Assembly: GCF_011397635.1 (NCBI RefSeq)
Contig: NC_064756.1
Location: forward strand, 34,896,996 to 34,960,995
Reading direction: 5' to 3'
DNA: 64,000 bases
DNA from: Epinephelus fuscoguttatus
Taxonomy: Eukaryota > Chordata > Actinopteri > Perciformes > Serranidae
The notes under the pieces were generated by a model, which ran no database searches, had not been told where the DNA came from, and was given only the letters and a program-made list of their open reading frames with translations. The translations under genes and the position numbers were made by a program. This document shows, piece after piece, positions 17,231 to 58,900 of this stretch. Positions within the stretch are counted from its first letter, which is position 1, and the number at the start of each line of letters is the position of its first letter.

Positions 17231-17908
17231 ATGGAGCAGCAGCTGGAGCTCGCTGCCCTCGGTCTGGCCTTCACCGGGTGGCTTTGTGCCATTCTGACTC
17301 GCTGCCTGGCTCTGTGGACGGTGAGCGGCACCGTGGACAACACCACCGCTACTCTGCCAGCCTACTGGGATGGGGTGTGGTTGCAATGGGATCACTGGGA
17401 CTTGGCCCAAGATGGCAGCCTGCACTGCTCCTTCTACCAGTCTCTCATGTCTCTGTCTGGAAGTTTTCGGACGTGGAGAGCCCTCATCATGGCGGCCATT
17501 GGAGCCGGGGCTTTTGCTGTGGTGATTGGAGCAGCGGGGTTAGTGTGGTTCCCCAAGCGTGGCCAGATCAAAGTGTTTTCTGGTGCTCTCTTTGTTTTGT
17601 CTGGAATCCTGCTGCTAGTTCCCACAGCCTGGACGTGCCATCACACCAGTCAGCCACTGGAGGGTGCTACACTGCTGAGGAGAGACTGGGGACCTGCACT
17701 ATACCTCGGATGGATCTCCTTTGCTATGATGGTGATCGGAGGGGTGTTTCTCACCACCAGGTGCCCCACCACTGAGGGGCAGGTGCAGCCACCTGAGCAA
17801 AGCAGGTATCCAAACCTGGAGGAGGGGGAGGCTAACCACCCACTGAGCCGAATCAACAGGGCTGCGTTCACAAGCAGCCAGTATGAACGCAGATCAGAGC
17901 CCATCTGA
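17231..17908 (+). CDS. Divergent claudin lacking the first loop-1 cysteine
   Basis: Predicted four-TM protein of 225 residues, intronless, starting at the ATG at 17231. TM1 is at about 8-28, then W29 and G48-V49-W50 of the signature. At position 53, where claudins have Cys, the codon is TGG (Trp). The second Cys is present as C66, so the spacing is 12 residues and not 9. No other Cys is available in loop 1, so the conserved disulfide cannot form in the usual way. N37-T-T is a possible glycosylation site in the loop. The FRTWRAL segment before TM2 and the GPALYLGW motif before TM4 keep the family pattern. The tail ends in Ser-Glu-Pro-Ile, not Tyr-Val. It lies at the end of the claudin cluster in the same orientation. 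The overall fold assignment is firm; the subtype is unknown. Confidence 0.85.
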   Translation: MEQQLELAALGLAFTGWLCAILTRCLALWTVSGTVDNTTATLPAYWDGVWLQWDHWDLAQDGSLHCSFYQSLMSLSGSFRTWRALIMAAIGAGAFAVVIGAAGLVWFPKRGQIKVFSGALFVLSGILLLVPTAWTCHHTSQPLEGATLLRRDWGPALYLGWISFAMMVIGGVFLTTRCPTTEGQVQPPEQSRYPNLEEGEANHPLSRINRAAFTSSQYERRSEPI

Positions 17909-31963: not shown

Positions 31964-34900
31964 ATGTTTAAGTCTATGAGTTTGTCCTCTGAAGGCTCCT
32001 TCGAAGATGCGGACTCGGTCAGCTCCGACGAGCTGCTCGGCTCTCAGTCCCGCCGCTGGCTCAATGACCTCATGGCCAGGGACATGCCCGTGGAGGACGG
32101 GCACGTCAACTCGGTCGGCGTGGACGGACTGTTCGTGGACTATCACTTTCCCCGGGGAGAGCTGGAGATGAAGTCCGGGGTGGAGTGGAAACGACCAAAG
32201 GTAAAGAAAGGGTGAAACCTTTTAAACCTCCTCTGCTGTGGTGCATACAAACTTAAATACATTTAATTAAAGGTAATAAAGTGTGAGCTACATTTTCAGT
32301 GGGTTTTTTTTTTTGCATGCAACAGGGCAGGTCATTTTCAGTTATCACCCTGTGTGACACAATTCTCCAGGGGGTCTGGGGTGAATAAACCTGAGGGGAA
32401 ATTTTTAGAAACTAAACGGCTGAACAATTAAGCCAGGGAATCTAAAAGTTCTGATGACTGGATGGCATTTTAGGGGAGACAGCATATTACTGAGTGCTGC
32501 ACAGGAAAGATGCACACTATGACTTTGTAATTACTTTATCATCATGACATACTAACTTTTCACAAAAACTATAACTATAGACAGATATAACACCTACATA
32601 ACACTCCCATTACACTCTAGTTTTCCACTTTTTAATAATTTGACAGACATGGGCAGATGAAGAGGTAATGAGCCCCTGGGCACAGATATGCAAAGGACTC
32701 CACCATCTCATAGGAGCAAGACACAGACTTTGTGATGCCTTTGCATGTCTTTTTTGCAGTTATGCATCTTTTTTGTGGTTGTTTGGGTCTCAGAGGTATC
32801 TGTGTGACTTTATTGGTGTTTTTGTGTTGCTTTGTAGTCCTGTTTTGTCCCATTGTGGTTGTTCTGTCCATTTTGTAGTTCTTTTGTTTCTCTTTTCCTC
32901 TGCATCTTTTTGTAATCATGTTGATTCTCTTTCTGGTCTTTCTGGTCTGTATGTGTTATATTGAGTGACATTTTGCAAATAAAGGCCAGGGAGCCCCCTG
33001 ACACTTCGGGCCCCTGGGCCTGTACCCAGTAGGCCCTTTTATAGTAATCCACCCATGTTGAAAGTAACACAATAGAGAGGGAGATCAGTGTTTGTACAGT
33101 GTTTTGACATTGATTGTTCACACAGTAGTCAAGCAACGGCTTCTGCTGAAGTACGGCAACATAACTTGGACAAACCACACACAGTTCTGCAGTAGCTACA
33201 CCGTAATACTAACACCAAGAGTGAAAATAATGACAATTTGTCATGCTTATTTATGATTATGATTACATTTGCTAATGATTACTTTGGGTGGTGGTGTGTT
33301 GTTGCTTGTTGCTGCATAACAAAAAATATTTATATATTTTTAATCAATATACTGGAGGGAATATTTTGAGCATATTTGAATACATATTATAATTAGTGCC
33401 TGGGCATGCATCAGCTGAAAGATATGTCAGTGCATTAGCATGTATGTTGTACCTGGTCAAGGAGTTCATCTTACTTTTTTATGTTGGACCATGGTGAATT
33501 AATTTAGTACAAGCTCTGCACCTAAGCATAGTTTTGCAGCACTTGTTTCTTTACTTCAATATTTTCATTTAATGCTACTTTGTAATTCTACTGTACTTTG
33601 ACAGCTGCATATATACACTCTGGACAGGTCGCCAGACTATCACAGGGCTAACACATAGAGACAGACAACCATTCACACCTACAGCCAGTGTAGAATCACC
33701 AATTGACTTGTGTGTGTGTGTTTGGACTGTGGGAGGAAGCTGGAGTACCCAGAGAAAACCTACATTGACCTACATTGACCTGGGGAGAACATGCAAGCTC
33801 CGCACAGAAGGGCTCTTTCCTGGATTCGAACCAGGAACCCTTTTGTTCTGAGGCAACAGTGCTAACCACTGTGCCACTCCAGAATTATTCAGCCAATTTA
33901 AATTTGTTATGGCACTTATATATGTGTGTATGACTTTATTGGATTTACCTCTGCCTTCTTTTACTTTCCCCAAAAACAATTTCCTCAATTTATATTTCCA
34001 TAAAACTGTGAAACATAAAGCACAAATACACACAAATGAGATGCATTTCGTCCTGGGCATGCATCAGCCGAAAGATAAGTCAGTGCATTAGTATGTATGT
34101 TGTACCTGGTCAAGAATGAGCTCAATAATAAATTTGTTTTCACAAGACTTAACAGGTCAGTCAAAGGTGTCAGTATTGTGGGTTAGAAAGAGGTATGTCT
34201 AGGTAAACACATTGTTCCTGACGGGGGAAGAATTGTTCAAACCAATTATGATCATATCTTGGGCGATGTATTAATCAGTAGAAAGATGGTCTAATACTGG
34301 TATCCTATTGTACCTGTTTCACAATATTCCGCTGCCCCTGCCATCATCGCATTTCACTAAATCAAAGAAAATATGTTTGTATTTCATTTGGAATGGCAGA
34401 CAACACAGGTTACGTCTGACATTATTATACTTACTGTTTGTCAGAGGGGGTTGTAATATTTGAATGTCAATGGACACTGAAATTCAAAATTCAAATAGAA
34501 AATGGTCGAAACATTCAGGCTTGATTTCCTATCCTGCCCTGGGTAGCCCAGATGTTGCTATTTGAACTAATAATAAGGATTTTCTGAAAGTTACAAACAG
34601 AACCTTTAAACTTTGCCTCCAGGTGCTATGTAGTAGGCCTACACTCAGGTGCAAGTTTATTTCTATAGCGAACGCAGTCTTACACAGTGGCCCTGCATCT
34701 ATCCTTCACGAAAGTTATTATGTTTTCCAGAGACGCTGTAGTTTATGTTGCTGTTGGATTGTTTATATTAACTTGAGATTGTCATAAATATGTTTAGAAT
34801 TATTAATCGGACATCTACAAAAATGATGATTATCATACACTTTGCAATACTGTATAAACTAATGCAAATCTTCCTGTGACTCTGAGTAAGACTGTTGAAG

Positions 34901-37900
34901 AAAGAACAGATACTGTGCCAAGTTTATGTCACATGTTCTGATTAAGTAAGTAGCTGACACTCCCTTTTGCCTGGTGCTGTTCGCGTTAAACGTGCTAAAT
35001 CCTGTTTTGTTTGTCCTCGTGTTACTGTTTTCCTTTCCATTGTCTCTCTTCTTCTTCTTTGCTCTGAGAAGAATACAGAAGATTACAGAAAAGTAAACAT
35101 CAACCCATATCAATTTATGGGTTAAACTTTGCCTTCAGGTGCTACTGAATAAACTGGATATCGACAAACAAGTTAATATATGTGCAGAATGTCTTGGTCT
35201 GTCTCATCTGTAGCTGGCAGACATACATAAAGACATTAGATAGTGCATAAGTTGAAAATAGAAAGAAATATAAAATAGAATACTGTGGTTGACAGGTGTA
35301 CAGTAGTGATAAGGAATGAACTGTAATATAGACAGGATTAAATAAATATATATGTCGACTTCAGCATGAGCAGGTATAAACAGGTAGCAGGAGATAGTAT
35401 GAAGGTAAAAATAGCCTGTGTGATTAAAGTGGCGTTGTTGCATCCTGTTTGTCTCTTAAAGTGACAGTTCACTCCAAAATACGTATTTGTTGCTTTGAGC
35501 ATCACAAGCCGAGTGCCATCCAGTTTCATTATGTTCAAGAGAAGGCAGATATCTTTACAGCTGATATCTCCAACACTCGGCAACTCACACCAAAACAATC
35601 TAGATTATATAAATAGCACTACGGCTATGAGGGAAAAATATGTAATTTAGATTTGGGGGTGAACATGATTCCTCAACAAGAATGAAAATGACAAAATCAA
35701 ACAGATAAAACGTCATAAAGTTTAGTATGTAAAAAGAATCAAGGCACCTCAGAAAACCTTAGACTTGTTGGCTCAAAAAGAAAAATGTTGTCAGGCTGTA
35801 TGAAAGTGTCATCATCATTTCATCAACACACGGTGAGGTTAAACAAGGGCGCACTGGAGGAGAGAGCACTTGTTGCTCTGTCTGCTTGTCTAACATCAAG
35901 TGAACTTTCAAGACACAATAAAGACACACTAAAATGGACATTCAGTTAAAGACTACCCCTTTTATCTTTTGGTATATGTATGTCAGAAGGTTGTCAGTCC
36001 TAAGTTCATCAGTTTATTGTCATAGCCTGGCATCACCAGACCAAATCGCAAAGGCCAGTAGTATCTGCCAGAGCAAATAAAACCTGATGTCACAGATTTG
36101 TTTGGCTCTCAGGCCGGTGGTTTGACACTTGAACAGTTAATGACCAGGATATACCAATCCTGTTTGACTGGTACTGTGGACTCTCCCTCATATTTACATA
36201 CTGTACAGTCTACTGAGTCCATAATGAAATATTATCTCATTATTTCTGTCACATTTCTGTTTCAGCTGGCTAGACAAAGTGTTGTCAGTCAGTTCATTTC
36301 TGAGTAATTATGCATCAAAGCATGTGAATTATCTATTATGCATACATCCAGCCATCCATATTCATCTGCAGCAGGCTGAGCAAGGTGTTTCAGACACCCC
36401 TCTCCTCAGCGGCTCCAAAGGGGCAACAGCTCTACTCCAAGCTCCCTCCAGATGTCTGCGCTCCTCACCCTGTCTCTAAGGTTGAGCCAAGCTTCCCTAC
36501 GGAGGAAACTCAATTTAGGCACTTGTATCCTCAGTGTCATTTGTTTTGGTCACTACCCAAAGCTCATGACCATTATAGGTAAGAGTCAGAACATAGATGG
36601 ACTGGTGAGTCGGGAGCTTTGCCTTCTGGTTCAGGTCCCTCTTCACCACAACAGTCTGGCTTTATTTATACAGCCCTTTCCAATACTGTGTTACAAAGTG
36701 CTTCACTTGTTTGACCAGGTCATTCATTTAACGGAAGATCATTGGTTCAATCCCTGATTCCTCCTGTCCACAGTCAAAGTATCATTGGGCAAGATACTGA
36801 ACCCCAATTGCTCCCACTCTGGCACCTTGTATAGTAGCCTTGGCCACCAGTGTGTGTGAATTCTGCACGTTAGTTTGGCTTCATCTGTCTCTTGAAAATG
36901 GTGTGACCTAATGTTTCAACAGTTAAGGAGTCCTTGCCACAAAAAAGGTTGAAAACCACTGTCCTGGGGGAAAGTCCTGTGTTGTTTGACCAATCCACCA
37001 CCCCAACCTGCATCCTTACACAGACTTGGGGTGTTTATACTGCTTCCTTCTGTACTCCCGTGAGTGCATTGGTCATGTGATTCCAACCTTCCTGATTACT
37101 TGGATTATATACAAATCATGGTGCATTACTTTTCACGTACGAACCGAGCATTAGAACAGCCTGATTAAAATGGTAATTATCATATACCTGGCAACACTGC
37201 AAAGATATGAAGCCAATATCAATCCTGTCGTGTGACCATATGTAAGACTGTTGAAGTACTCCTTCAAAAAAAACAAATATTGCGCCAAATTTATGCCACT
37301 TTGCTCTGATAGCTGAACTGTAATAATTTGCTGCCACTCACTTTAGCGTTCTAACGCCCTAAATCCTGTTTATTCTCATTTGACTGTTTCCTTCTCTATC
37401 CTTTCTCTCAGTTGCTTTCTCTTTTTTTCTCTGGCTCCTCTGCCTTCTCCTTTTGGTCAACTAATCATCAAACTCCCTGCTGTTCCCAGGAGCTCTGCAC
37501 ATCACCTCAGTTCATAGTAGATGGAGCTTCTCGTCTGGATGTCCGCCAGGGAAACCTCAGTAAGAAGACAGCTGACACGTAACGTTATTATTTTTCTCAC
37601 TCACCGTTGCATCTCTCGACAGAACAGCACAGTTGAGTTTCAGCCTGCATGCACGTTTTTTCAGACTGTCATTGATGAAACAGAGAAGCTAATGTTAAAG
37701 TTAACTGAGTGAGATGCCGGTCTAGACAGCTAACATTATGTTGTGTTTTATCTGATAACGTAATTGTTCACAAACACCATACACCTGTTGACCTGTATTT
37801 TCTCTGAAATCCAAAATATTTCCACACTGGTAATTTGTTCCCAAGTAAATAATGTTGTCCTCATCGTCTTTCTCTTGGCTGCTTGCCGTCTGCCTGCTGC

Positions 37901-39631
37901 TGTTTGACGGTAACACAGATGTTCAAAATAAGAGCGTATCCCAAAGATGATGATATTGATCATTGTTTTCATTTTGCATCGATGAGATTGGATCGTTGAT
38001 CATTGAATCGATTTATCGATTTGGATCGATGGATCATTACACCCCTATAAATGGTAGAATTTCAAAATACACCGTCCTTCTTCAGTTCTCTTCTCTCTAT
38101 CCTAAGCCCCTCCCACCAGACGACCATGGGCGTTTACACGTGCTTTAAACTGTGACCCAGTGTTTCCCAGATACTGGTTTATTTAATCTTGTTTAAGTGT
38201 AGATTTGCCTGCAGCTCATCTGCTCAGCCAAGAGATAAGAGAAGGTTCAAAACTCTAGTTTGCTCAGACTTTATTATGGGATGTTTGCTCCAATGAAGCC
38301 AAAATTAAACTGCCTACCCCAGCTATAAATCAAAAGAATCACAATCACATACACTGTTACTGAGTGGGGTTATATTAGTTTGTGTGTCAAGTAGCAGTGT
38401 TTGTTAGTTATTGAAGAGTCTGACAATCAGCACTTTGATGTGGCCTGCAAAACAACATAATGCAGCTCCACGGAGGTGAAATCATCTGTGACAGATCTGC
38501 AGGTGCATGAATAAAACCTGATGCACCTGCAGCTAATGAAGAATTACAGCTGCTGCTGACACAAATACAGACTGTGAAGGGGATGAGTCAGCAGGAAGCA
38601 GTGTACTTAGCTGCCCAAACTGTAGATAATATTATTCAAATATGGTATTTGATATTTGTGTCGCAGTACCTTTGTTAGCCTTAGAGGCAAATTGGCATCA
38701 AAGATGACTGGTCAGCTCCCTTTGTAGAGCTATGGTCCCAACTTAGAACATTTCTATAATGTAAACTGTGTTTTTCACAACTATTTTACACATTATTGTG
38801 GACACGATAGTCCTCTCTATTCCCCACCTTTTATTTAAGTCAAATTCCTTGTACTGTATGTGCTCACATAGTTGGCCTATAAAGCTGATTTTAATTTTGA
38901 CTTGCGTTCTCCTTCAGGTTACTTATACCTGTTAAACCCAATGCAGTCATTTGACACTTTCTGAATGCATATCATGAAACAAGTGGCCAGCAAACAATGG
39001 ATTATGGGAGAATGAGGGCTGAAGAGGATGCACCAGTTTGTGTCAAATTTGGGCAAAAGACGACTGCATATGGAGGAGAAATAGGGCTTCTAAACAGGGA
39101 CTGCCAAATGTTACAATGGCAATGGCAATGGCATGGCACCTTATAAACAGTTCATGACATTGTGTTGAAATGCAGAATTTAAATCATCACCTAACTTATT
39201 TCTCAACAAGGCTGTGGTGCTTTCTGCCATCATAACTGCATCACTTTCTGCTGAGAAGTGACACTTTCAGAAAGAAACTCAAATGCCTCTTGGACAGGGC
39301 TTCCAGAAAGGATACAACGGCTGCTTCATGTTCAGGGTAAATACCTGAAAGCTGTTTAACATGTTTTCTGCGCAGAGCAGACGTCTTTGTTTTACAAGGT
39401 GGAATTCTCAGTCTGGGGTTTAAAATACAGGGACAATGACACAAAGGAACTTCAAATCTTTCTTGTCTTGGTCTGTCTTTGTGTTGACAACAATGGAATT
39501 TTCATCTAGATAACAATTTCTGCATGATAGCAGATTCTGGAAAATGTTTGAAACTATCATGCTGACTTTTTATGGCCATTGTAAAAGTTGATGTCATTTT
39601 GTTACACTGGCATTGTAACAAAATGACACCG

Positions 39632-39686: not shown

Positions 39687-42600
39687 GTTCTGGCAGTATG
39701 GTCAGTGGGAGGAGGTGAGGATAGACGACTTGTTGCCAACTCGGAACAACAAACTGATCTATCTCAGCTCCCCGGACAGACATGAGTTCTGGAGCTCCCT
39801 GCTGGAGAAGGCCTACGCCAAGTGAGTCCCTGTGCATCAGTGTGCACGTCAGTGAAAATCATTATCTTACTTAGATCTAACTGCTGAGGTAATGTGAGGG
39901 TAATCACATCCCATGAACTGGGACACTTTTTACAATCAGCAACTCATCAAAAGTGCTTCTGATGTTTTTGTGTGGACCCTTTGACTTTCGCCTTGCACCA
40001 CTATCAGGCCCTGGCTTGTAAGAGGATTTTTTCTTGTTAGAAACATGTAAACTTGTTGCCGATGTTGTAAATTTCTACCTGATTTCGGATCATATTCCTG
40101 CTGGAGCATGTCTGGGTGTGTTTAGAAGCTTTTATTGGTGATTTTCAGCAGTAGAAATTGTAGCTATTCTCCATAAAAGTACATCTCCAGCTGCAATGAC
40201 ATTGCAAAGATGCTGAGATATGGAAGACCTGGAAACACTGACCAATCAGAGCAGACTGGGCCCTTTCTGAAGGGGGCTTTAAGAGACGTTAAATAGAACC
40301 ATCTCAGACAGAGGGCGAATACAGGTGTTCCAGCACAGAACACCCGGTTGCTTTCCTAACGTGTCAAATACAGATGCTTATTCAGTGACCTTGGCATCAG
40401 ACACCAACGCACAGAGGCACCCTTTAGCAACTGTATGAGATGCGGTGGCCTTTTCTGATGTTTCGGCCAAGTATGGTGGTAAAAAGAGCTAAAAGTGTGC
40501 ATAGGGTGAGAGGAAGTAGAAGTGAATGGGTCAAACAAACCCCAGATTTTCACCCAGGAGACGTCTGTTTGTTTCCTCTGTGAAACCAAAAGTCATTCAA
40601 GTTATTTTAATAACTACCTAGTGCGCTAGTATGCTTAGAATGCTATGCGATATTATGCAACATATGTCACATCATGTTACATCATGTCAGTGACAAACAT
40701 ACTTATTTGAAGTTTTTTTCTAAAAGGAAGTAAACCTAAAAAACAAAGTGTTCAAACTAAATTCCAAATTTAAGTTTGAAAAAGACTGTATGCATTTAAC
40801 AAGTAGAAATTCACACGGTCCCTGAATATCCAGAACACATACAGGAAGGTACTTAGAGCATCATATTTTGATGTGACAGGTCAATGACCAAGCATCAGTA
40901 CTTGGTGAGATGGGAGAGAGAATGTGTTGGCACAGACAGTGAGAGGGACCATTAAAACATGTAAACATGTTCCAGCAGAAACCTTAAGACACAAGTATGA
41001 ACCTGAAAATGAGCATAATGTCTGTGGGTGTGTGAGCGAGCATGCATGTGTGCAATGAGGGCGACATCACCCTCAGAATGAACTTAAGGAAGCAAATTTA
41101 TCAGGATGCTGACTGTTTGGCTCGATACTGTCACGTTGAGTGCACTGAACATTACAGCTGGTAGGGCAGAGATGTAGTCTGCCTGTTACTGACATTTCAT
41201 GTTCATGTTATGCTCCTTTGCAAAAAGTCTGTAATTAGTGGCTTTTTAAAAATAATTATTGTTGCTTCATCCAGTTACAGGTAGCACCAGAAATATCCTC
41301 AACCAGAATAACAAACATGGAAACATGTTGTCTGTGGAACCTTTTGTACACACTGTGCAGTTGTTTTGTCTGTCCAGCTAAATTGAAAACTTTCACAGGT
41401 CTCCCTCAGTCAGTCTGCCTCCATGTTTGTGGAATAAAATGTATGGGACCACACAAACATACTGGAAAGAACATCCTAAATACTGAAATAGATTTTCTGA
41501 TTTCTAAAACTGAAAATCTCTTTATTTGTTCATTTATTTACCTGTCACGTTTTTTTTTAAAGGAAATTAATTTCTCTGACAAGACCTTGTTTGTTCAGCT
41601 TTTTATCTGTCTGGAATCTGTCTGATGTGTTAATCCTCCTCGTGTCTTTTCTCCCTAGGGTGAAAGGTGGCTACAGAGCTCTGGACATGGGCTATCCTCA
41701 TGAAGCCATGGTTGATATGACGGGTGGGGTGACTGAGGTTTATAGCGTTGGCACAAAGAGAAACCTGTCGTCCTTCCTCAGAAACCAGCTGGCTAAAGGA
41801 GCACTCATCAACTGTGCCAACTGCCAGGTACAGTGAGGAGGATCGCGGTGGCGTGACATGTGGGGGAACGGACTTGTTAGGTCTAGTTTAAATCGCAGAA
41901 CATGTCATAGAACATGTTCCTATTGAAAGTTTACTTGTATGAGATGAGTCACCTAAGTGTTATACCTTTTCCTTCTGTCCTGACTGTGGGTGGATGTTTT
42001 TTTCCTCCAGGGTTCTTTGGAAAAAAAGAATGAAATGGGGATCATGTACAAACACGCCTACTCTCTGACTGCAATAGAGAAGGTAAATAGAGATGCCTAT
42101 TGACAGGTTACATAGTTTACACATTTCTGTGATAAATTTGTAGACACATAACAGCTAGACTGACCATTTAAGAGCTTTTGAAATTAAATCTTGGATCAGA
42201 TGTTTCAAATGTTTGATGACTGAGTGACATTTTAGGGAGCCAGCTTATGATTAAGGGCTGCACAGGAAAAGTGCACACACTATGACTTTTATGACAAACT
42301 TGGACTTTTTATATGACATTTTTATTTGATATTTACCATGATATTTTTATGATTTTTTATGAGATATTATACCACAACACTTTGTGACTTTTTACATGAG
42401 ATTTATACTATGGCATTTTATGAGATATTTTACTATGACTATTTTATGAGATTTTTTAATGAAATATTTTACTACGGCATTTTGATGAGGTTTTTTTTTA
42501 TTTTTTAAGAGATATTAGACTATAACATTTTTGTGACGTTTTTCATTAGATATTACATGATGACATTTTTGCGACATATTATACCATGACATTTTTATGA

Positions 42601-44273
42601 AATATTATACTATGATATTTTTACAAAATATTTTATTATGACATATTTATGAGATTTTATATCAGATATTGTTACTACAACATTTTTTTTAGATATTTTT
42701 TATGAAATATTTTTAGTGCGACATTTTTATGAAATTCTTATGAGACTTTCAAGAGATATTAGACTATAACATTTTTGTGACATTTTTATGAGATATTTTA
42801 CGAGACATTTTTATGACATTTTTTTATGAGATACTTTACTGCAACATTTTTATGAGACTTTGAAGATATATAAGACTATAACATTTTTGTGACTTTTTTA
42901 ATGAGATATTAAATGATGACATTTTTGAGATGTTTTACTATGATGTTTTTATGACATTTTACTATTACTACTACTACTATTTTACTAGGATATTTTACTT
43001 TTACATTTCTTGACATTTTTATGACATTTTTATGAGATATTTTACTATGACATTTTTATGACATTTTTTATAAGATACTTTACTACAACATTTTTATGAC
43101 ATTTTTATGAGACTTTTAAGATATATAAGACTATAACATTTTTGTGACTTTTTAAATGAGATATTAAATGATGACATTTTTATGAGATATTTTACTATGA
43201 CGTTTTTATGACTTTTTTTACAAGACAATTTTATGACATTTTACTATTACTACTACTACTACTTTACTAGGATATTTTACTTTAACATTTCTTGACATTT
43301 TTATGACATTTGTATGAGATATTATACTATGACATTTTTATGACAATTTATGTGATTTTTTTACGAGATATTTTACTATGACATTTTTATGAGATATTAC
43401 ACTATGACATATTTTTATGACTTTTTAGGAGATCTTTTACTACGACATTTTACGACATATTACATTATGACATATTTTATGAGATATACTGTGGCATTTT
43501 TACGACATATTACAACATTTTTATGAGATATTATACTATGACATTTTTATGGCATTTTTATGACAAAGTATTGACACGACAGTGATAAAGCCTACATAAA
43601 ATATTATATCATAGTTTTCCACTATTTAATACACTTGAAGGTAATTTCATAAAAAGACAGTACAGTGTTTGACATTGATTGTACCACCAGCAGTCGATCA
43701 ATGACTCCTAATGGGGTATGATAGCACAACTGTACAAACTACACGTAAACTTGCAGTAAACCATAATACTTGAATCAGTAATAACAATTGCAACTTGTAA
43801 GATGTAGTCAGTAGATGATTTGTTCACCTTTAACACGGAAGATGGATTCATCTTGGCCCTCAGAATATTAAAACCTCTTAAAATATATTTTATTGTAAGG
43901 GCCTAGATTTAAATGGAGGATTTGAAGACATTCATCATGGCCTGTCCTTACTACTGCTCTAACCTTTTCTTTCTGTCTGTTTCTTTCCTATGCCAGGTGA
44001 AGACGGCAAACGGCACCCAGGAACTGATCCGAATCCTAAATCCCTGGGGCGACACTGAGTGGGAGGGGCCCTGGAGTGACTTGAAAGGGTCGGTACACAC
44101 AGGTTTTCAATTTATTTTATAACTGATGAATGAAAATATAAAAGAAGTCAACTTGGAAGATAAAAAGAATTTACAAATTTAAATTATTCATGCATTTGCA
44201 TGTGTCTTCCTCTCTCAGTCTCTCTTGTGTTAAAGTAAATATATCGCCATGTGCACAACATTACAGTGCTCTT

Positions 44274-44414: not shown

Positions 44415-46865
44415 GAAAACATAAATTAGTGCATAAATATAGGGATGAATATTAAAAGCACTATTAAATAAGGTAATCAAGACTATGTTGTTTTCCTGAA
44501 TCAGTGATAACATTTGGAAAAACATATTTTACACTTTTTAGGGGGCAAAAATATAAAAGTCTTCTCTCTTTGTTTATGTGTCTGTGTGTCTCTCTGTGTG
44601 CAGTCCAGAGTGGAACACAGTGAGCATCGAGGAGCAAAAAAGACTGGGTGTAGTCAGACGGGAGGACGGAGAGTTCTGGTGAGTTTGTGCGTCTGAATGT
44701 CCCTCTGTGACATACATCACTGCTGACTCTGACTCCTAATGTCCGCCTTCAGTAAACATAGAAGTTGATGAGACTTTTTTTTCCAACAATTTAAATGACC
44801 ATGTGAACAGTTTCAAAAACTAAAACTGGTCTTGCAGAATGGAACTTGATATAAACCAGATATTTGTACGGCAGCCCTGAGAGTACAATGTGCTGTGCAA
44901 ACAAGTAAAAACACAATCAAAATGTTTCCCAGGGGACACTAAAAATTAATGCACACTGCTGAACCTAACCTGGCATCAGCCTTTAGTTTATCATGAGCCT
45001 GCCAATTCAAATAATCAGACAAAATACACACATGTAACTGTGAAACAGGCTAACATTACATTAGCTGGCTATAATGTCTCAGAACCTGTAATATGGGACG
45101 AGCATATCAAAGCACTACAGGAGGAACAAAATAAAACTTGCAGCATGCCTAAAGGACTCCAGATGGAAATTAGCCCCGGGCTATACTCTGGCATATGTAC
45201 GTGTACTGCTGTGAATGTTCATTAATATGCATTGTCCTGATTTTCTAAATAAATAAAAAAAAATATTTGTGTTTCTCTATTAGCAGTGTGTTGAGCTCTC
45301 TGGGCCTCTGTATATTCGGGCAGACTGGCCTGTAAGTGAACTCACCAGTTTCTCTCTCCATCAGGATGTCGGTGTCAGACTTCCGACAGCACTTTGAGTT
45401 GATGGAGGTGTGTCACCTGACTGACGGTCTCAGTGATCAGGGGTCCAGCGTGCTGCCGTGGTGCTGCACAATGCATCATGGGAACTGGGTGCCACGCATC
45501 TCAGCAGGGGGTCCTCCCTCAGGGCGTAAGATACATGATGATACATGATCAAACGTGTGTTTTTTTTATTGTTCTGTGTATGGTAACTTGTGTTTGGACC
45601 ATTAACTCTCAAACGGTGATCATTATTTACTGAAGGGAGAACCTTAAGTAGAGATGTTTTGATTGTCATATTTGAATAAGGGACTGTACTTGATGGTTTG
45701 TTGCACATGATGTGTGTAAGGGCAGGGACCGTTTCTGGCCAAATACATGATGTCTCTGTCCAACTAATGTTTGCTGGGTTAACATAAGAATACTGGAGTC
45801 ATGCTGCCTGCTGAGGTCTGTTTGTACAGTGTCAATGATCCGTTCTGCATCAGGATTAGCTGTCAACACATCAAGTTTATTTCTGCCTGTCTTTAACAAC
45901 AGTGCCAAAGGGGTGCCACAGTGCAGTGTATTTCATCTCTGCAACACTCAGTAGGTGTTCCAAAAAGAAATGTGTTTTTGTTGGCAGTCCCAGCAACTGC
46001 ATAAAAAGCTGTCAATGGAGAATGCTGTCAGGTCAGTTTCAACATAGAAAAGATGTTCCAGGAGGTTTATTCTGTAAAGGTCCAGTGTGTAGGGTTTAGG
46101 GGGATATACTGGCAGAAACGGAATATGATAAGTATGTTTTCTTTAGTTTATAATCACCTGGAAATAAGAACTGTTGTGTTTTCCTTACCTTAGAATGAGC
46201 CATCTATATCTACATAGGGAGCAAGTACTCCTCCATGGAGTTGGCCATGTTGCACCATCGTGTTTCTACAGTAGAGTGGAAAAAAACAAACACTGGCTCT
46301 ACATAGGGCTATTCATGTTTTAGCAGCCCCTCTGCAATGAGCAGCATCAGAGAAACATTTTTTTTTAAATGTGAAACTGCTTTATTCAGTGATTTTACCA
46401 GTTTGTTTCTGAGAGGAAGAGACGTTTGCGTAAAACTCATCTCTCAATAAAACCCCCCTAAACATCTTGATCTAGAGTTATTAGAGAAAAAAGAGGATCA
46501 CACATTAGCTGGTGCTGGACTAGCAGCCCGATGAGCTGAACAGTGTCGGAGAAACACTGAGTTTTAGTGTGAAACTGCTTTATTTCAGTTTTAATCACCT
46601 GGTCCATTTGTTTTGAAGAGGAAGAGACCTCTGCGGATAATTTGGCTCCTGGTAAAAAAAAATGCAGTAAGATGTAGTACTGATAGAGAGTGTGTGTTTG
46701 GTTCCAGGTTTGTTCTGGCAGAACCCTCAGTTCTACTTCACCCTGTCGGAGGTGGACAGTGGCGCAGACGAGTCTCAGAAGACCTGCTCCTTTATTTTGG
46801 CTCTGTTGCAGAAACACCAGAGACTCAGGGGTGTTGACCTGTCCATAGCCCTGGATATATACCTG

Positions 46866-46914
<49 letters not shown>

Positions 46915-49900
46915 GACACGAGATGGCAGTTATTTATTAATAAATGATCAAAATACTCACCTACTGATGCAGACTAAAACCAAACAAGATCCAACTATCT
47001 CAGAGACAATAGTGGGTAGTAGCTAAGTACTTTTTAATTTATACTCCACTACATTTTAGAGCAGCAGTTGGGAAACAAATATAGTTGCAGGAAGTTAAGT
47101 TTGATTTTGTGGCTCATTAGTTTGTTGTATTAAAAGTGTGTGTGTTGTCACTCCAGGCCAATCCTAATACAACATACCTGTCACCTGAGGACTTGAGTGT
47201 GCTCCAACCAGTCCTCTGCACCTCCCAATACTCCTCACGTCGAGAGGTCGTCCTTCGCGGCTCCCTTCCACCAGGCCACTACATCATCATCCCTTCAACC
47301 TGCAAGGCCAATCAGCAGGGAGCATTTCTCCTGCGGGTGCTGACAGAGCCGGGTAACACTGCCATGTGAGTCAAGCATCAGTCTGTTGCAGAGAGAGTTT
47401 ATGAAGTAAAAATTACCAACCAAGCACCGTCAAACTGTGTGTTTCAAGTGCAGAAAGGTAAAGAGGCAAAACAATGTCCTCCAATCTGCAGATGAGATAA
47501 GCTTATGATGGCATGCTGTATTCAGAATAAAATCAAAATACGAAACTGTCTAACTTGACAGAATTAAGTGTACACAGCCTGTGCTGGACCGAGCAAATTC
47601 AACACCTCCAGTTTTATCCAATTTTTTAGTACAGTCATCAGTGTCACAGAGGAACAGTGTGATTCATGGTCATTTACACCATGATGATAAAACTGTGAGG
47701 ACTTGTGATTATGATTCTAATATGTTTTCATGTTTTTTTTTTTCCAGTCCAGCCAGCAAACCATCGCCACATGACATCTCTTCAGGAAAAGAGGTAGGAG
47801 TTAAATCAGCTACGGAATAAGCAGGCAGGGCTAAAACTAAATCCATCAATGCTGAACCTACAAGTCAGACAAGTTATGATGTGAGAGAGTCCCAGTAAAG
47901 CCTGGATAGTTCAGTCAGGGTTCAGCTGGTAAAATAGTCAAATATGTTAGCAACTCACATTGAAGTGGTCTGTGGATGTAAACTTTTGTCCCACAATGCA
48001 ATGCAAACTCGAAATAGAGGAGCCACTAACCCTGCGTTCACTTGTAGTCACAATAATCAAAAATTAAGTTCCTGACTGAGAATATTCATGGAAACACGCT
48101 GGCAAAAATGTTAGTACACGAGTTGCTGAGTTATATATGCAGAAACATGGCATATCAAAGTAAATGTTCTGTTGATGGTTTCAAAACTTTTTTATTAATT
48201 CACACATGATTGTAGGAGCATAAAAAAAATAAAAATAAAAAAAAAGTACTGTGCAATTCTTCTTTCTTATTGTTGATAAGTGTTCTCAGAGCCTGGATAG
48301 CTCAGTCGGTAGAGCATCAGACTTTTAATCTGAGGGTCCAGGGTTCAAGTCCCTGTTCAGGCGAGCCTAGTTTTAAGACACTTGAAGTGGTGATCAATGA
48401 CAGGAAAATCATTCATCAGCTATAATATGATTTCAATTACGTACCTCAAACACTTCTACATGTCAAACAGTTCATGGTTATACACAGTACACAGATGGGG
48501 TGTTGTTTGCAAGTGAAGTTAAAATGCAACATGAAAGCATCAGTAGTGATGTAGACAATGTGTCAGACTGTTGAGTCACAGAAAGAGGTGAGCTGGAAGT
48601 CAAAGCTCTTGAATTAGGTTAGGTTCTGACCCTCACCTATGGTCATGAGCTTTGGGTAGTGACTGAAAGGATGAGATTGCTGATGCAATAGGCTGAAAAG
48701 ACTTTCCTCCATAAAAGATACTGTGAAGGAGACAATTAAGGGAGTAACTCTACACAGTGGTTCATTTCTCTTGCTGTGAATAGTTGCAAATAGAGCCTGG
48801 ATAGCTCTATTAGTAGAGCATCAGACTTTTGACCTGAGGGTCCAGGGTTAAGTCCGTGTTCAGGCAGGATGAGTTGTAAGTTTCCTTGGAGCTGATCACA
48901 ACAGGAAAGATGTGTATTAGCTGCTGCAGAGGTTCAGTCACTGAGCACATAGTTTACCTCAGTCACATAAGTGAACTACACCACAGTTACCATTTGTGCC
49001 TCAGTTCCATGTTATGTCCAAGTATTACGTAGAGTAATAGTAGTACACTATTGTCCCATAATGCAATGCACAAAGAAAATATAACTCACAGTTGCAAAAG
49101 ATAAAGAAGAAGTGGTGGCAAAGAAGTAAAAAGGTAAAACAACAAAAAAATCATAAAAACTGCACCTTGCTGCAAAAGTGGACGAGATCAGGCGGCAGCA
49201 GCAGGGGGCGGTGAGAGCCGGTCAAGTTGGACAGTTTCCTGCAACCTTCAGGCTGTACAGGAAGTCACTGAAACACTCACACCCTGTTAGATCTGATTCC
49301 TCTTTGATGAAATGTTATCAGACACGTATATCAGTTTGTTTACAGTCTCCAGTTGTTTTAATTATACCAGAGTAGGCTAATGAAATGCCTCACAGGAGAT
49401 CTGCAAGTGTGTTCATGGTTCAGCCTCCATTTTACAGGAATTCTCATGTAAATCAGCATCATATCAGTTTGCTGCTGTATGTAAATCAGCTGAGCAGACC
49501 TGTCACCATCACGCACACAAATGAATTTATGACATATATAGTCAAACACAGAGGAAAGAAACACAAGACAACAGCTTTCTTTAAAGATCAGTCAGATATA
49601 GTCAGGGCTTCACATCTGTACAGATGTCATTTTAAGAATCCTCACATCTTACTTACCACAAGTCTTGGTGTTGCTACATTAAAACAGTCCAATGTTAATA
49701 CACAATAGACTGTAAAGTTCAAGAGCTGTGATATGAATGTATTCAGTCTCTTTGACTACTAAACGTCACTATCAGCAACAAGTATTCTGGTAACACTGTA
49801 AACCCCCCCCTGGGTCTGGAGAGAAATTGCTGCTACATTAAGCTTGTGGCCACGATAAGTGGAGTGAGTTGGGACAAGTTCGGACACAAATCTGACCGGC

Positions 49901-52900
49901 TAGCACGCATTGTGCAGAAATCAGTAGTGTTTGATCCTGTGTGGCCCTCATTGTTCAGGACTATTAGCTACTGAATGATTTTCCTGTCTTGCTGTCTGCT
50001 TCCATTGACTTAAAACTCTTCTTGCCTGAACAGGGACTTGAACCCTGGACCCTCAGATTAAAAGTCTGATGCTCTACCGACTGAGCTATCCAGGCTCTTC
50101 TTATAGTATATCGCAGTAAGATCAAAGAACCACAGTAGACAGTTACTCTCCTACAGTCTTCAAACCTCTGCCTCTGTCAAAACTTTACCAGGGTATCAAT
50201 ATTTTATAAGACATTTTGCTTCTTTTAACTTTGATCAATAAGTCAGGAGGGGGAGTTTTAAGTTTGGAACTTGAATCCAAAACAGTACAAACATTCAGCA
50301 GGTGATTAAAGTGAGGTATTGGCTTTTCTTAGACTTGTTGCTGCACCTGTACACCTTCTAAAACAAAGAAAATATGCTTTACTTGACTAATGCTAATTAA
50401 TATTTTTTTTTAACTAATAAAGGTCTCTCTACAGTTACTTCAAATTACACGTAAGCTAAATATGTAAGTTCATATAAAGTTTATAACCACCAACCGAACA
50501 TTTACTTTTGTACACCGTGTTTCTGTATATACAGTGTAACTCTGCAACTCATGGTTTTTCACTGAATTTCAGAGTCGTTGTTCTGACTTGAAGGGGTGTT
50601 CACATCATTTTTAACACTCAGGAAGTTATTTTTCTGCTTATTCTGAAATCACATGAATGCAGGGTTAGTGGCTCCTCTGTCTCATGTTTGCATTGCATTG
50701 CATTGTGGGACACTGGTTTACATCCACAGACCACTTAAGGAAAGGAGGTTGCTAATTTATTTAACTATACCTAACTTTCAAGTCGTGATCACAGTGGACA
50801 CACATTTACTCAGCATGCAGTGATTGTGTTGAACTGATTTTCCTGTCATATTTGTCCACTTCAAGTTCTTTAAAACTTTTCTCGCCTGAACAGGGACTTG
50901 AACCCTGGACCCTCAGATTAAAAGTCTGATGCTCTACCGACTGAGCTATCCAGGCTCTTCTTAAGCGTACTTACAGTAAGAAGAAAAAATTCTCGCATTG
51001 TCTTCAAAACTGAAGACGTCATATTTTGAAAACATACTGATGTTTAAAAACCTCTTGTGGTGTTGCACACATGCTTGGTTCTCTGAAATTGACATTGATA
51101 ATGTATCAAGAAAGCAAAAAAGTTGGCCCTGTGATAGCTGAGCTGTTAAAAGCCCTGGTGACAGGCTCCAGCATGCACTGGGCTTTGTTAATTGGTGGAT
51201 AAATGTAAAACACCCAGAGGATTAATCTAGTTTATTTCTCTGTGACACAACTTTTTTTTGCAAGATGCATGTTAAAAAAAACTGCAATGCTCAATATATG
51301 GATAAAGTATTTTATATTAGGCATCTGTTTGTGGAAGTTGAGAATTGAGTCTCTGTATTTTCTTCCTGCAGCTTACATACCCTCACCGGGCTGCTCTTCC
51401 TTCACTTGCAACCATCAGACATCTGTTCAAGAAGCACTGCAACAAGGTAAGACTTGCTTACATAGAGCTGCTGTACAAGCAGGTTTGAACTGAAGCCTAC
51501 TTTAAAGATGCCACATGGATGTTTTCAACACTGGAATACACATTTGTTCCCACACTCTTCAGACTATCACAATAATTAAAAGTGCTACTGATAACATTAG
51601 CCACTAGATGTTGCACTCTCCCTTCCCCCTTCCATTGCAGTCATGTCACCACACTGCCCACTGCTGTTAGTAGAGCAACAAGTGGTTGTCAGTTTGTTGC
51701 ACGACCTGCATATTTCAGACAGACAGAGTCGTGAAGAGTGATAACTTTTTTGGCAGACTAATGTATGAAGAGGAGTGTCTCTGTGTGTGGCACTGACCCT
51801 GATATCTTGTGTTGTGACTGTTTCCTGCTTTGTGTCATCAGAAAAACCATTGCAAACCAGTGCACCTCCACAACCTGCTGACTGAAGCCTTACAGGGAGG
51901 AGGTTAGTGCCGTCTCTCTTACTGCTTTAGTGGGTGGATCAATAGACTAGTTCAGTCTTGTTTCCTCCCATTGATTTTTTTATAATTCCTTTAATGATAG
52001 TGGGAACAAGTTAACTGTCATCCTTGAAGGATTCTCACAGGAACAACAAAACAAAATAATGCCTCCAGTGGTTACATGTTTGGTGGGTGTTTATCTGGAA
52101 TCAAGTTATACCACAAACATCTAACTACTACAAAATGTACAGAGGCGATGCCTCGCTGCAGCGGTCGCAGGTTCGACTCTGGCTTGCAACCATTTGCTGC
52201 GTGTCACCCCCCGCTCTCGCTCTCACCCCATTTCACTCTGTCCTGTTCATTAAAGGCAAAAGCCCAAAAAAATAATCTAAAAAAAAAACAAAAACCTGCT
52301 TCTCAAAGTCCTTCAAGTTTCAAGTATACGTATATGCACAACAATTACAGCAGAGCAGCCGTAGCAGTAGTTGTTTTCAGGTTCCCTCCAACAATGCAAC
52401 TACAAGATGCATAAAGACAGAAACATGCAAGTATAGAAGAGAATTACATAAAACATTAAATAGTACAGATGTTAAGGTGAGTGAATAAAATATTAGAAAT
52501 ATAAAACAGAATGATGAGCATGATGACCAACTGAATTATCTCCCCAGATTTTGTTTTGATTACTGTAGTGCATAAATGTATGTAGAACTTTACATCAGAT
52601 CATTATTTTTACCATACATCACCACACTAAATAGTCAGTCAGCCAGTCGACCTCAATAGTTTCTGCTCTCTCTGTCTCCATCTAGAGGGAATCAAAATAA
52701 AAGAAAAAACTAGATTTCTTCTCATCAAGTCATGTTGTGTTCTCAGATGCTTTTTAACAGGGAGGGCATCAAGAGTGTGAAGGATTTAGTACAGCATTGT
52801 GCTGTAAAGGTGGTGGAGACATTGGGAGAAACTGGGAGGGGGATGTACTGCGGATTTTTTGGTTCATTGTCTGTCCCAGGGACCCACACCCACCTCTACT

Positions 52901-55900
52901 GAAACAGGCTATGTGAGGGTCATTAACATAACAAAATCAAAATTCATGACACTGATTGGAGTGGAGATGCCGACCCCACCACAGCCATGATAACGACAGT
53001 ATTCAAACCTAGAAAAACAATCTCTGCCTCATGCTTTAATAAAGTTTCTCACTCTTCTTGTGTATGCAATGTATGCATGTTAAAATGTCCACTAATGATT
53101 GTACTTGTTTTGCCCAGTGTTGGCCGGCAGTGAGAAGTACTTGGCTCTGGAGCACTGCAAGAGCCTGGTGGTCCTCATGGATGTATCCTTACAAAGCAAT
53201 ATCATGTCAGTTTACTATATCTGCCTCTCTGTTATCTACCTATTGTGTCTGAACAGGCACACACAGTAGATTGAAAAACATTCAAGTTTCGGTATTAGCA
53301 GACAGATCACTGGACCATGAGAGTGAATGAAAGAACAGGTAAAGAAAAATAATGAGATCAGTATCATGTTAAAGCTGGAGCTGAAAATGGTGTAAAAATA
53401 GTGATACTGTGCACAGAGGGAAATATCTTTTAAAGACTGCACGTGATTGGTAGATTGTGATTCTTGTTTCTTACGATTTCTTGTTCAGTCAGAGCCTGGA
53501 TAGCTCAGTCGGTAGAGCATCAGACTTTTAATCTGAGGGTCCAGGGTTCAAGTCCCTGTTCAGGCGAGACAAGTTTTAAAATAATTGAAGTAGTCATCAT
53601 ACAACAGATAGCAGTCTTGAACAAAAAGAGTCGTGTTTGCACAGAATCTAGAACCACTGATTCCCCCTCAATGCACGCCAGTTAGTCAGATTTCCGGACT
53701 TGGTTCCAACGTGCTCCACCTGTTGTGGACAATAAAAACCTCACAAGATCAATGCAGCTGCATTTTCTCTCCACCAACTGCAAGACCCAGAGTATGATGG
53801 GAAACACAGTCGATAGGTTTAAATGTTGACTCAACAATGACATTTAATAGAATCTTTTGATTCTGATTGACAGCGAGTCCTCAACCATAAAGTCCACCAT
53901 GTTGCAACACCATGTTTCTGCAGTAGGCCACAGCGGACAAACCAAACACTGGCTCTAAATGGGGCCATTCAGGTTTTTGCATCAGCCACTGTGGTTCACA
54001 GCCCCTCTGTGACAAGCAGTGTCAGGAAAACACTGATTTTTGAATGTCAAATTGTTCAGTCCACCTATGCTGCGGTAGTTAAGCTCCAGGTAAAACCCTC
54101 CTGAACGACGAACCATGAAGGAATTCTTACTAGGACAAGTTTCAGGTGGTTGCAATCTGTAGTCCTCACCACTGGATGCCACTAAATCACTTCATATTTT
54201 ACACACTGTTCCTTTAAAACTTTTCTCGCCTGAACAGGGACTTGAACCCTGGACCCTCAGATTAAAAGTCTGATGCTCTACCGACTGAGCTATCCAGGCC
54301 CTATCAATGTTAGTGTAACAGTGAAAAGAAAGAATCATGTTACTGTTACTCTCCTGTAGTCTTCAAATCTACTTCTGCCATGGTATCAATATTTTTAAAA
54401 CATAGACATAACTGCAGTACTTCAGTAAATGTACTTTCCACCACTGTGCGTACTTGATTAAAATGTTGGTTACTACTGTGACTCTGCAAAAGAGGGCCAA
54501 CAGGTGTTACTATTATTTTGTCCAGCCCTTTTTTATGTGAGTAAGGGAGGACTACATAACAGAAAGACCTCTCTGTGAAGTGCAGCACAAATCAACACAC
54601 AAACTGCAGCCTCTAAAATAAAGCTGAGTCAACACTTTAAACAGTTCCAACACAAATTGATCATCATAGAGTGCATTTGTTTTGGCTAGGTGTATCTAAT
54701 AAACTAATAACCAAGTGTATCGTGTTATTTGGATTGTTGATGTTTGTGCGGTTCATTTCCTTGACCTCAGTGTTTCCTTCAGAATACCGGCAACGCTCGG
54801 CTGAACTGGGATGAGTTCCAGAGTCTGTGGGACAAGATCAGGAGGTGGACGGTAAAATTCAACACACCAGTGACAAGAATAAAACTGGCGACATCATAGG
54901 TGTAGATTTCAGGGGGGTTGCAGGGATAAGTTAGATTCATTATACTGGCTAAAATAATCTTATTTTGCTCAAAAGATTGTCACAAATCTGTCATGTGAAG
55001 CAAAAATAATTGAGCTAAATTTGCATTACAGATATAATTCAAATTTTGTAGCATACTTTGTTTTTATTTCATCATAAGACTTGTGACTTGTGTTCATCAG
55101 GACAGGTCAGGTTGCTGCAGAAATTGGTCCATAATTGAGTTTATGTATTTAGTAAAGGAAGAATAAGTTGTTGTCACAGACATTATGTCAGTACATGCAG
55201 TGTTTCATGCATTCAGTAAGTTGTGTTCCATCTTTTCTCAGGATATCTTCCTGGTGTATGACAAGAACAAAACAAACCACCTCGAGTATAAAGAGGTCGC
55301 CCCCGCTCTGAACGCAGCAGGTAGGACTGAGGACACATCAATAAATAGATAGTTCATTCACACTGGAAGTACTTCTCAGTCAGGAGCGGAGAAAAATAAA
55401 AAATATTTATGAGGTGGCAAGAGGGGGGCAGGAATTTTTGAGGGGTGGCAACATATGTCAGATGTACAGTACAGGCCAAAAGTTTGGACACACCTTCTCA
55501 TTCAATGCGTTTTCTTTATTTTCATGGCTATTTACATTGTAGATTCTCACTGAAGGCATCAAAACTATGAATGAACACATGTGGAGTTATGTACTTAACA
55601 AAAAAAGGTGAAATAACTGAAAACATGTTTTATATTCTAGTTTCTTCAAAATAGCCACCCTTTGCTCTGATTACTGCTTTGCACACTCTTGGCATTCTCT
55701 CCATGAGCTTCAAGAGGTAGTCACCTGAAATGGTTTTCCAACAGTCTTGAAGGAGTTCCCAGAGGTGTTTAGCACTTGTTGGCCCCTTTGCCTTCACTCT
55801 GCGGTCCAGCTCACCCCAAACCATCTCGATTGGGTTCAGGTCCGGTGACTGTGGAGGCCAGGTCATCTGCCGCAGCACACCATCACTCTCCTTCTTGGTC

Positions 55901-58900
55901 AAATAGCCCTTACACAGCCTGGAGGTGTGTTTGGGGTCATTGTCCTGTTGAAAAATAAATGATCGTCCAACTAAACGCAAACCGGATGGGATGGCATGTC
56001 GCTGCAGGATGCTGTGGTAGCCATGCTGGTTCACTGTGCCTTCAATTTTGAATAAATCCCCAACAGTGTCACCAGCAAAACACCCCCACACCATCACACC
56101 TCCTCCTCCATGCTTCACAGTGGGAACCAGGCATGTGGAATCCATCCGTTCACCTTTTCTGCGTCTCACAAAGACACGGCGGTTGATTACTGCTTTGCAC
56201 ACTCTTGGCATTCTCTCCATGAGCTTCAAGAGGTAGTCACCTGAAATGGTTTCCACTTCACAGGTGTGCCTTATCAGGGTTAATTAGTGGAATTTCTTGC
56301 TTTATCAATGGGGTTGGGACCATCAGTTGTGTTGTGCAGAAGGTTAATACACAGCCGACAGCCCTATTGGACAACTGTTAAAATTCATATTATGGCAAGA
56401 ACCAATCAGCTAACTAAAGAAAAACGAGTGGCCATCATTACTTTAAGAAATGAAGGTCAGTCAGTCCGGAAAATTGCAAAAACTTTAACGTGTCCCCAAG
56501 TGGAGTCATAAAAACCATCAAGCGCTACAATGAAACTGGCACACATGAGGACCGACCCAGGAAAGGAAGACCAAGAGTCACCTCTGCTTCTGAGGATAAG
56601 TTCATCCAAGTCACCAGCCTCAGAAATGGCAAGTTAACAGCAGCTCAGATCAGAGACCAGATGAATGCCACACAGAGTTCTAGCAGCAGACCCATCTCTA
56701 GAACAACTGTTAAGAGGAGACTGCGCGAATCAGGCCTTCATGGTCAAATAGCTGCTAGGAAACCACTGCTAAGGAGAGGCAACAAGCAGAAGAGATTTGT
56801 TTGGGCCAAGAAACACAAGGAATGGACATTAGACCAGTGGAAATCTGTGCTTTGGTCTGATGAGTCCAAATTTGAGATCTTTGGTTCCAACCGCCGTGTC
56901 TTTGTGAGATGCAGAAAAGGTGAACGGATGGATTCCACATGCCTGGTTCCCACTGTGAAGCATGGAGGAGGAGGTGTGATGGTGTGGGGGTGTTTTGCTG
57001 GTGACACTGTTGGGGATTTATTCAAAATTGAAGGCACACTGAACCAGCATGGCTACCACAGCATCCTGCAGCGACATGCCATCCCATCCGGTTTGCGTTT
57101 AGTTGGACGATCATTTATTTTTCAACAGGACAATGACCCCAAACACACCTCCAGGCTGTGTCAGGGCTATTTGACCAAGAAGGAGAGTGATGGAGTGCTG
57201 CGGCAGATGACCTGGCCTCCACAGTCACCGGACCTGAACCCAATCGAGATGGTTTGGGGTGAGCTGGACCGCAGAGTGAAGGCAACCAACAAGTGCTAAA
57301 CACCTCTGGGAACTCCTTCAAGACTGTTGGAAAACCATTTCAGGTGACTACCTCTTGAAGCTCATGGAGAGAATGCCAAGAGTGTGCAAAGCAGTAATCA
57401 GAGCAAAGGGTGGCTATTTTGAAGAAACTAGAATATAAAACATGTTTTCAGTTATTTCACCTTTTTTTGTTAAGTACATAACTCCACATGTGTTCATTCA
57501 TAGTTTTGATGCCTTCAGTGAGAATCTACAATGTAAATAGTCATGAAAATAAAGAAAATGCATTGAATGAGAAGGTGTGTCCAAACTTTTGGCCTGTACT
57601 GTATATATACTGAATTTATAGTAGTTCACACTACATAAGGGCACGGGCTGCCATTTACAAACTCATACAGACAAACTTAATCTCATGCAATCAATATCTT
57701 GCATTTGAGGTTTCATGTGAAACAGTTCATATTAGGAATAAGTGTTGAAGGAGGTTCAACAGACTCTGAGTCTAACCCTGAACTCTGAGTTGATTTACCC
57801 TGAGATGGGAAACTCTGAGTTACCGGTTCCAGAACAGCTGATTTGAGTTAGTTCAGTCAACTCTGAGTATGTTCACTCTGAGTTAAGCCGACAATAAAAA
57901 GCCATCATCAATGGAGCTCCGACTCCACAATTCACCATGGCAACAGGTAAATAAAAGACAGCGGCTCCATTTTAATCCAGTGGATATAGAGATATTAATG
58001 CATGTGTAGCAGACGGTGCACGTTTATCTTTAAAAAAAGAGCCTGAGTCAGAGCAAGGAAAGTGTAAATAAGTTAACCATAAAGTCAATAAAAAAGTTTA
58101 TTCATCATTTATCAGACTTACATTTCCTTAATGAAGATAAAGTGGTGGAATCTGACTGTGTATCAGGCTGTAGATACATTACATTATATTAATAATATAT
58201 AATAATATATTTGTTCAGATTTAATCTGATGGGGGAAAACACAGGAGCCAGCAACTGAAAAATAGGAAGATTTAAAACATATAGGCTAGGCTATAGATCA
58301 AAGACATAAAGACATGACTGTAAACTCACAGTCTGACCCAGTAATAATATGTTTGGTGATTTGCACTTGAAAAGACGTTGAGGTTAAAATACAGTAGATT
58401 TTAAAATGTTGCACATCTATTTGTATCTTGACTCAACAGCATTCAGTGACTTTATTTCAGCTACAAATGTAGTAAATTTAAAGACACTGAAATGCTGCAC
58501 CATTGCTCACTCAGAAATATGAACATATAATCCCCAATATTAGGCTATAGGAATTATGTTCCATCAGTGCGACCAGTGACATCAGTGACAGAGATCATTA
58601 GTCATTGATACTACATGTCTAAAGCTTCATACCGATTTTTAAAATTTAAATAATTAGACCTACACATTATGTGCAACAAACATTTGGGAGCTGCTCTAAC
58701 AGACTGACAGCCTGATCCTTGTGCAGTGTTATAAAAAAATAATAAATATAAAAAGGACAGAGGTTTGATTCTGAGCTGAGGATGAATTCTCGCTGTGTAA
58801 TATTTGAATGTAAAGACAAAACCAATGTCCAAAGAAATGATTGATGTGCATAAATTCAGTAACTTAAGACAGTCCTGAGTAACAAACTAATATCCAGCAG

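Follow-up and report, generated by a model that had tools for sequence, protein, structure and literature searches.

An otherwise open classical calpain gene, probably capn12, that lacks the catalytic-cysteine half of exon 3 in an Epinephelus fuscoguttatus assembly

How can a calpain gene lack the segment that encodes its catalytic cysteine while the rest of its reading frame stays open? This question is raised by a locus of the perciform fish Epinephelus fuscoguttatus. In a 64-kb stretch of DNA (64,000 nucleotides in all, free of Ns, and referred to here as the window), a calpain gene of the classical type with 20 exons occupies positions 31964-61095 on the plus strand. Exons were placed from the sequence, and their borders and phases were checked by script (Table 1). 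This revealed that exons 1, 2, and 4-20 (n = 19) have open frames, GT/AG at every junction, and agreeing phases, upholding the preliminary description, which had called 19 exons intact, while exon 3 is unreadable. Exons 1-2 contribute 307 nt of coding sequence and exons 4-20 a further 1668 nt, with the stop codon at the end. The borders of exon 1 and exons 12-14 rest on splice sites, phase, and position, with no part played by homology, and as these four exons were fitted to splice sites and phase their openness is partly a matter of choice. Only the last residues of exon 1 match calpains, with alignment to CAPN1 and CAPN2 chains beginning at residue 71, and exons 12-14 match poorly (2 of 20 residues in exon 14 are identical to CAPN1). 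Splice scores were built from the gene's own 18 acceptors and 18 donors, which were themselves scored leave-one-out, while candidate sites were scored by the full matrix. The exon 10 donor, CTG/gtacac, runs into a CA microsatellite (46863-46911), and the exon 10/11 junction shows a five-residue gap relative to CAPN1 and CAPN2.

Table 1. Exons and exon 3 remnant of the calpain gene, in window coordinates.
Feature	Position	Strand	Remarks
Exon 1	31964..32200	+	ATG start, ends VEWKRPK; only the end is calpain-like; PF00648 reached jointly with exon 2
Exon 2	37490..37559	+	Oxyanion Gln; last base A, phase 1
Expected site of exon 3 5' half (GDCW, catalytic Cys)	39205..39282	+	Barely above intron; credible acceptor absent
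Surviving 3' half of exon 3	39283..39336	+	18 codons, the first an in-frame ATG; good donor
Exon 4	39688..39821	+	Core Ca ligand Glu
Exon 5	41659..41827	+	Borders, phase, CAPN1 alignment
Exon 6	42011..42082	+	Catalytic His, KHAYS
Exon 7	43997..44088	+	Catalytic Asn, LNPWG; donor weak, gtcggt
Exon 8	44604..44678	+	EDGEF, Ca site 2
Exon 9	45365..45525	+	Borders, phase, CAPN1 alignment
Exon 10	46708..46865	+	Calpain_III; donor abuts CA microsatellite
Exon 11	47157..47365	+	Calpain_III
Exon 12	47748..47793	+	Splice sites and phase
Exon 13	51372..51446	+	Splice sites and phase
Exon 14	51842..51902	+	EF-hand 1 region; splice sites and phase, match poor
Exon 15	53118..53182	+	Donor GAT/gtatcc, weakest in the gene
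Exon 16	54783..54851	+	EF-hand
Exon 17	55242..55320	+	EF-hand
Exon 18	59669..59785	+	Borders, phase, CAPN1 alignment
Exon 19	60082..60140	+	EF-hand
Exon 20	61069..61095	+	WLHMTMYN, then stop

The domain content of the translation is that of a classical calpain. The CysPc domain is present, with Peptidase_C2 (PF00648) scoring 36.0 bits over exons 1-2 and 247.5 bits from position 39283 onward against a cut-off of 23.8; the latter score compares with 331.5 for the matching stretch of CAPN1. The C2-like domain III (PF01067) is present at 106.8 bits (cut-off 21), as is a penta-EF-hand (PEF) domain, which aligns to the PEF chains of CAPN3, CAPNS1, and CAPN13 and reaches 25.3 bits with EF-hand_6 (cut-off 25). 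Two other EF-hand models and a CAPN13-like model fall below their own cut-offs, the region of EF-hand 1 matches poorly, and none of the NCBIfam models matched. Identity to CAPN1 is moderate, for example 24 of 44 residues in exon 4 and 20 of 69 in exon 11. We do not favour an identity as CAPN13, as the C-terminal CAPN13-like model stayed below its cut-off and the CAPN13 PEF chain scored 48.8 bits versus 89.1 for that of CAPN3. No CAPN12 or CAPN17 sequences are among the PDB matches of the translation. Pieces of EIF3K lie upstream of the calpain gene at approximately 24-29.4 kb on the plus strand, with the last EIF3K open reading frame (ORF) ending about 2.6 kb before the calpain ATG, and on human chromosome 19 MAP4K1, EIF3K, ACTN4, and CAPN12 fall inside about 150 kb according to Table 3 of PMC10149284. 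Given this arrangement, the gene is probably capn12, an assignment made from synteny with one gene, EIF3K. In zebrafish, capn12 has been placed on chromosome 18 in a trap paper (PMC4482254), in which skin and fin are sites of the capn12 reporter. The remainder of the window includes part of SBDS on the minus strand, recognized by Pfam, and, upstream of SBDS and EIF3K, a series of five long single ORFs (838-17908) that look claudin-like and share the plus strand; Pfam confirmed both of the two that were examined.

The 3' half of exon 3 is well preserved. The stretch 39283-39336 gave an ungapped score of 57 against rat CAPN1, versus a best score of 23 among the 63,917 other plus-strand positions, and was recovered by tblastn with an E value of 6.8e-4; its donor, AGG/gtaaat, is good. 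The recognizable 3' half and good donor that had been described at this locus are thus borne out. Directly upstream of 39283, in the same frame, none of seven residues matches CAPN1. In CAPN1, 40 residues separate the final complete codon of exon 2 from exon 4; given the phase of exon 2, exon 3 is expected to be 119 bases long, and its 5' half, which would encode Gly-Asp-Cys-Trp, should fall in 39205-39282. When this stretch was aligned in a frameshift-tolerant manner, anchored at 39282, between 21 and 277 of 700 intron windows scored as well, depending on the reference and the frameshift cost. Without the anchor it scored 15, between the 95th (13) and 99th (18) percentiles of 1000 windows; the windows came from the calpain gene's own introns, and some overlap. 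The stretch may therefore be intron rather than worn exon, with a faint likeness to calpains possible.

These results alter how the lesions first ascribed to exon 3 are to be read. The seven-base length discrepancy claimed for the remnant hinges on an acceptor before 39211, and the AG there (39209-39210) has a score of -2.1, lower than any of the gene's 18 other acceptors (3.2 to 14.1); the bases concerned may be intron. A TGA at 39259 is indeed in frame with the 3' half, as had been noted, but may likewise be intronic, as the stretch around it hardly differs from intron. The claim that the Gly-Asp-Cys-Trp segment had been destroyed stands insofar as no GDCW half was found, while the 39205-39282 stretch assigned to it can barely be told apart from intron. 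The simplest description is that an acceptor and approximately 60 bases encoding Gly-Asp-Cys-Trp are gone, with an edge near 39275-39283.

An intact exon 3 elsewhere at the locus would change this picture, and none was found between 37560 and 39687 by three scans, in agreement with the preliminary description. A motif scan of the interval from exon 2 to exon 4 detected nothing DCW-like. In tblastn searches with CAPN1 exon-3 peptides, only 39283-39336 rose above chance in the window, with all other matches at E values of 0.16 or worse. An in-frame cassette scan of the exon 2-4 interval, with thresholds of at least 3 for acceptors and at least 2 for donors, the latter too high for an exon whose donor is like the weak one of exon 15, yielded two candidates, neither of which resembles a calpain by eye; the seven control stretches gave 6, 3, 2, 0, 1, 1, and 9. 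The best ungapped match to the 5' half on the plus strand between 32000 and 61000, at 51816, was rejected as it spans the exon 14 acceptor. A strong, acceptor-like AG before 38918 (score 10.6) is followed by a weakly similar stretch scoring 21, versus 15 for the stretch at 39205; however, a score of 21 was also attained in 3 of the 809 control windows, and 10 of the 1869 AGs that are not splice sites score at least 10, so this candidate was not favoured. Thus the catalytic-cysteine segment is missing and the remainder of the gene is open, confirming the central observation of the preliminary description: we found no cysteine-bearing half, no good acceptor, and 19 open exons. In the assembly as given, this intron-bearing gene carries a disabling lesion of the kind by which unprocessed pseudogenes are recognized.

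The remaining active-site residues point to an enzyme that was apparently active until lately. Of the Cys-His-Asn triad, His and Asn are kept while the exon bearing Cys was not found; by alignment, the oxyanion Gln, the catalytic His, and the catalytic Asn with its Trp are kept. Also kept are Val, Gly, Asp, and Glu of the first calcium site and, at the second, the acidic ligands. At one residue of this second site Arg takes the place of the Met of CAPN1, while His is preceded by Lys rather than Gly, and Asn by Leu rather than Arg. Retention of Gln, His, and Asn favours recent activity, as a long-standing dead protease would not need them. Two further features may be early signs of decay, and either may be natural in this lineage. 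The exon 15 donor (53180-53188) has a leave-one-out score of -2.8, versus 2.0 to 9.7 for the others, and carries four of nine consensus bases by a generic donor table. The split codon after exon 2 encodes Gly in five CAPN1-type chains and cannot do so here, given the A that ends exon 2, provided that the intron position is conserved.

We consider it probable that the gene, itself probably capn12, is a recent null allele or young pseudogene knocked out by a single event. A deletion or local rearrangement would have removed the exon 3 3' splice site together with approximately the first 60 coding bases, including those for Gly-Asp-Cys-Trp, thereby joining intron 2 sequence to the surviving 3' half, and the transcript would be degraded or would yield an N-terminal stub only (134 residues if exon 3 is skipped). 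That there was one event, and that it was recent, we infer from the bounds on divergence. The 675 codons examined, including the 18 of exon 3, contain no stops, and 4.1% of random substitutions would create one. This places the 95% upper bound on neutral divergence since the loss at 0.8-1.1% with assumed frameshift rates, the indel ratios being assumptions, and at 1.9% without indels; when exons 1 and 12-14 are left out, the bounds become 0.9-1.3% and 2.2%, respectively. If neutral, the gene broke recently, at about 1-2% divergence or less. At that age about one substitution and no indel are expected in 63 bases, which makes piecemeal decay of the 5' half alone implausible and fits one event. 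A repeat insertion or template switch at the break was rejected, with four 9-mer matches and otherwise weak matches in the window. Open exons 1, 2, and 4-20 would also be expected under selection, which tempers the argument for recent loss, and the 21 of 700 control windows that score as well in the most favourable setting leave a hint of an old 5' half in decay, which tempers the argument for a single event.

An assembly or sequencing fault, in which the genome holds an intact exon 3 whose 5' half was dropped or garbled by a local misjoin without Ns, is unlikely but deserves weight. It would account for a gene that is otherwise open and consistent and has kept its other catalytic residues, and repeats that can trouble assembly are near: intron 3 contains a near-perfect palindrome of 37 bases (39592-39628), closely followed by a CT run that starts at about 39633 and continues up to exon 4, and GGCAAT is briefly repeated around 39115-39135. 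Against such a fault, the window has no Ns, the repeats all lie away from the edge, and apart from them the sequence of introns 2 and 3 finds no more than short or weak counterparts in the rest of the window.

The preliminary description had offered a choice between a recent loss and a protease-dead product under selection; the stop-free 675 codons and the kept catalytic residues support the former, while the reading frame weakens the latter. Skipping of exon 3 is ruled out as the source of a dead protease, as the phase at the end of exon 2 (1) does not fit that at the start of exon 4 (0); the frame shifts and a stop follows 32 residues on, giving 134 residues in total. Inclusion of the 126-nt remnant gives a product of 116 residues in all. 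An open frame lacking the Cys is available only through a new start or a poor cryptic acceptor. From the ATG at 39283, which would belong to a new first exon, the frame is open to the final stop, and use of the AG at 39273-39274 would create a 62-nt exon, beginning at 39275, that restores the phase exactly. The conservation edge falls at that ATG and near that AG, and Cys-less, non-proteolytic calpains exist, as PMC3731218 documents for CAPN6. On the other side, the acceptor before 39275 scores -8.4, at approximately the 40th percentile of 1867 non-site AGs, versus 3.2 or more for the 18 others, and a third route, an acceptor before 39311 giving a 26-nt exon, is worse still at -9.8. A new start would leave exons 1 and 2 unconstrained, yet both are open, and a dead product would not call for retention of the catalytic His, Asn, and Gln. 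Its stability is also doubtful, as the PC1 lobe would lose its core helix with the missing stretch. The weak donor of exon 15 is a further point against it. On balance, we judge it quite improbable that a protease-dead product is still made and selected by either of the first two routes. The fuller proposal, that a classical calpain has become a Cys-less calcium-binding scaffold, still under selection with exon 3 shrunk to its 3' half by one of these two routes, strikes us as very doubtful.

Decay of exon 3 by several independent small lesions is highly improbable: when the whole exon is aligned with frameshifts allowed, the alignment spans 39209-39336 or 39215-39336, takes one to seven frameshifts according to the penalty set on them, and shows some remaining likeness, but that likeness hardly exceeds the intron background, and several lesions in about 63 bases versus none in 675 codons would need selection elsewhere in a gene that offers no easy in-frame product.

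A recent null allele or young pseudogene, which we favour, can be set against known calpains. The gene resembles CAPN12 of bony vertebrates in its Peptidase_C2, Calpain_III, and EF-hand parts and in having EIF3K close by, but it is without the exon half for the catalytic Cys and the acceptor of that half, and orthology is drawn from synteny with one gene. CAPN12 is described, in PMC4043111, as conserved across bony vertebrates without duplicates and as third among nine classical calpains in strength of purifying selection. Eutherian CAPN6 likewise has no catalytic Cys; according to PMC3731218, however, its Cys is substituted in a translated protein, while the fish gene retains His and Asn, and the frame of its canonical splice product is broken. 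The same paper holds that, among vertebrates, placental CAPN6 is the sole calpain that is non-proteolytic by structure. Calpains of other eukaryotes have partly or fully lost their active-site residues, the catalytic Cys within the calpain domain included, as PMC3563603 reports; there the residues are substituted or missing, whereas the fish gene, a classical vertebrate member, lacks a splice site together with half of an exon. Young unprocessed (unitary) pseudogenes share with this gene the kept introns, a gene-breaking lesion, and an open remainder. Among the literature matches listed we found no report of a Cys-less fish calpain or of a capn12 or capn17 pseudogene, which does not prove that none exists. 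If the gene is truly a clean natural null in a fish, the loss of this conserved protease could be dated and would put the need for capn12 to the test, and if a Cys-less product is maintained, it would add another non-proteolytic calpain to those of vertebrates, with its breakpoint known. As it stands, this is most likely one young broken gene.

Several other elements lie in or beside the calpain gene. Intron 17 holds a Tc1-like element (55462-57606) with two inverted arms of approximately 720 bases at 98.3% identity, whose ORFs run in opposite directions with a common transposase end, and the one that was tested matched DDE_3; the insertion is palindromic and apparently young. Five tRNA-Lys(TTT) genes lie on both strands in calpain introns 12 and 15 (48291-54299), four of them identical and the one at 50023-50095 different, with a sixth, weaker copy at 48795-48866 recognized by Rfam only. 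A THAP-domain ORF on the minus strand (61927-62271) is flanked by similar ORFs at 61037-61297 (minus strand) and 62499-62726 (plus strand), and these two look like copies of one repeat.
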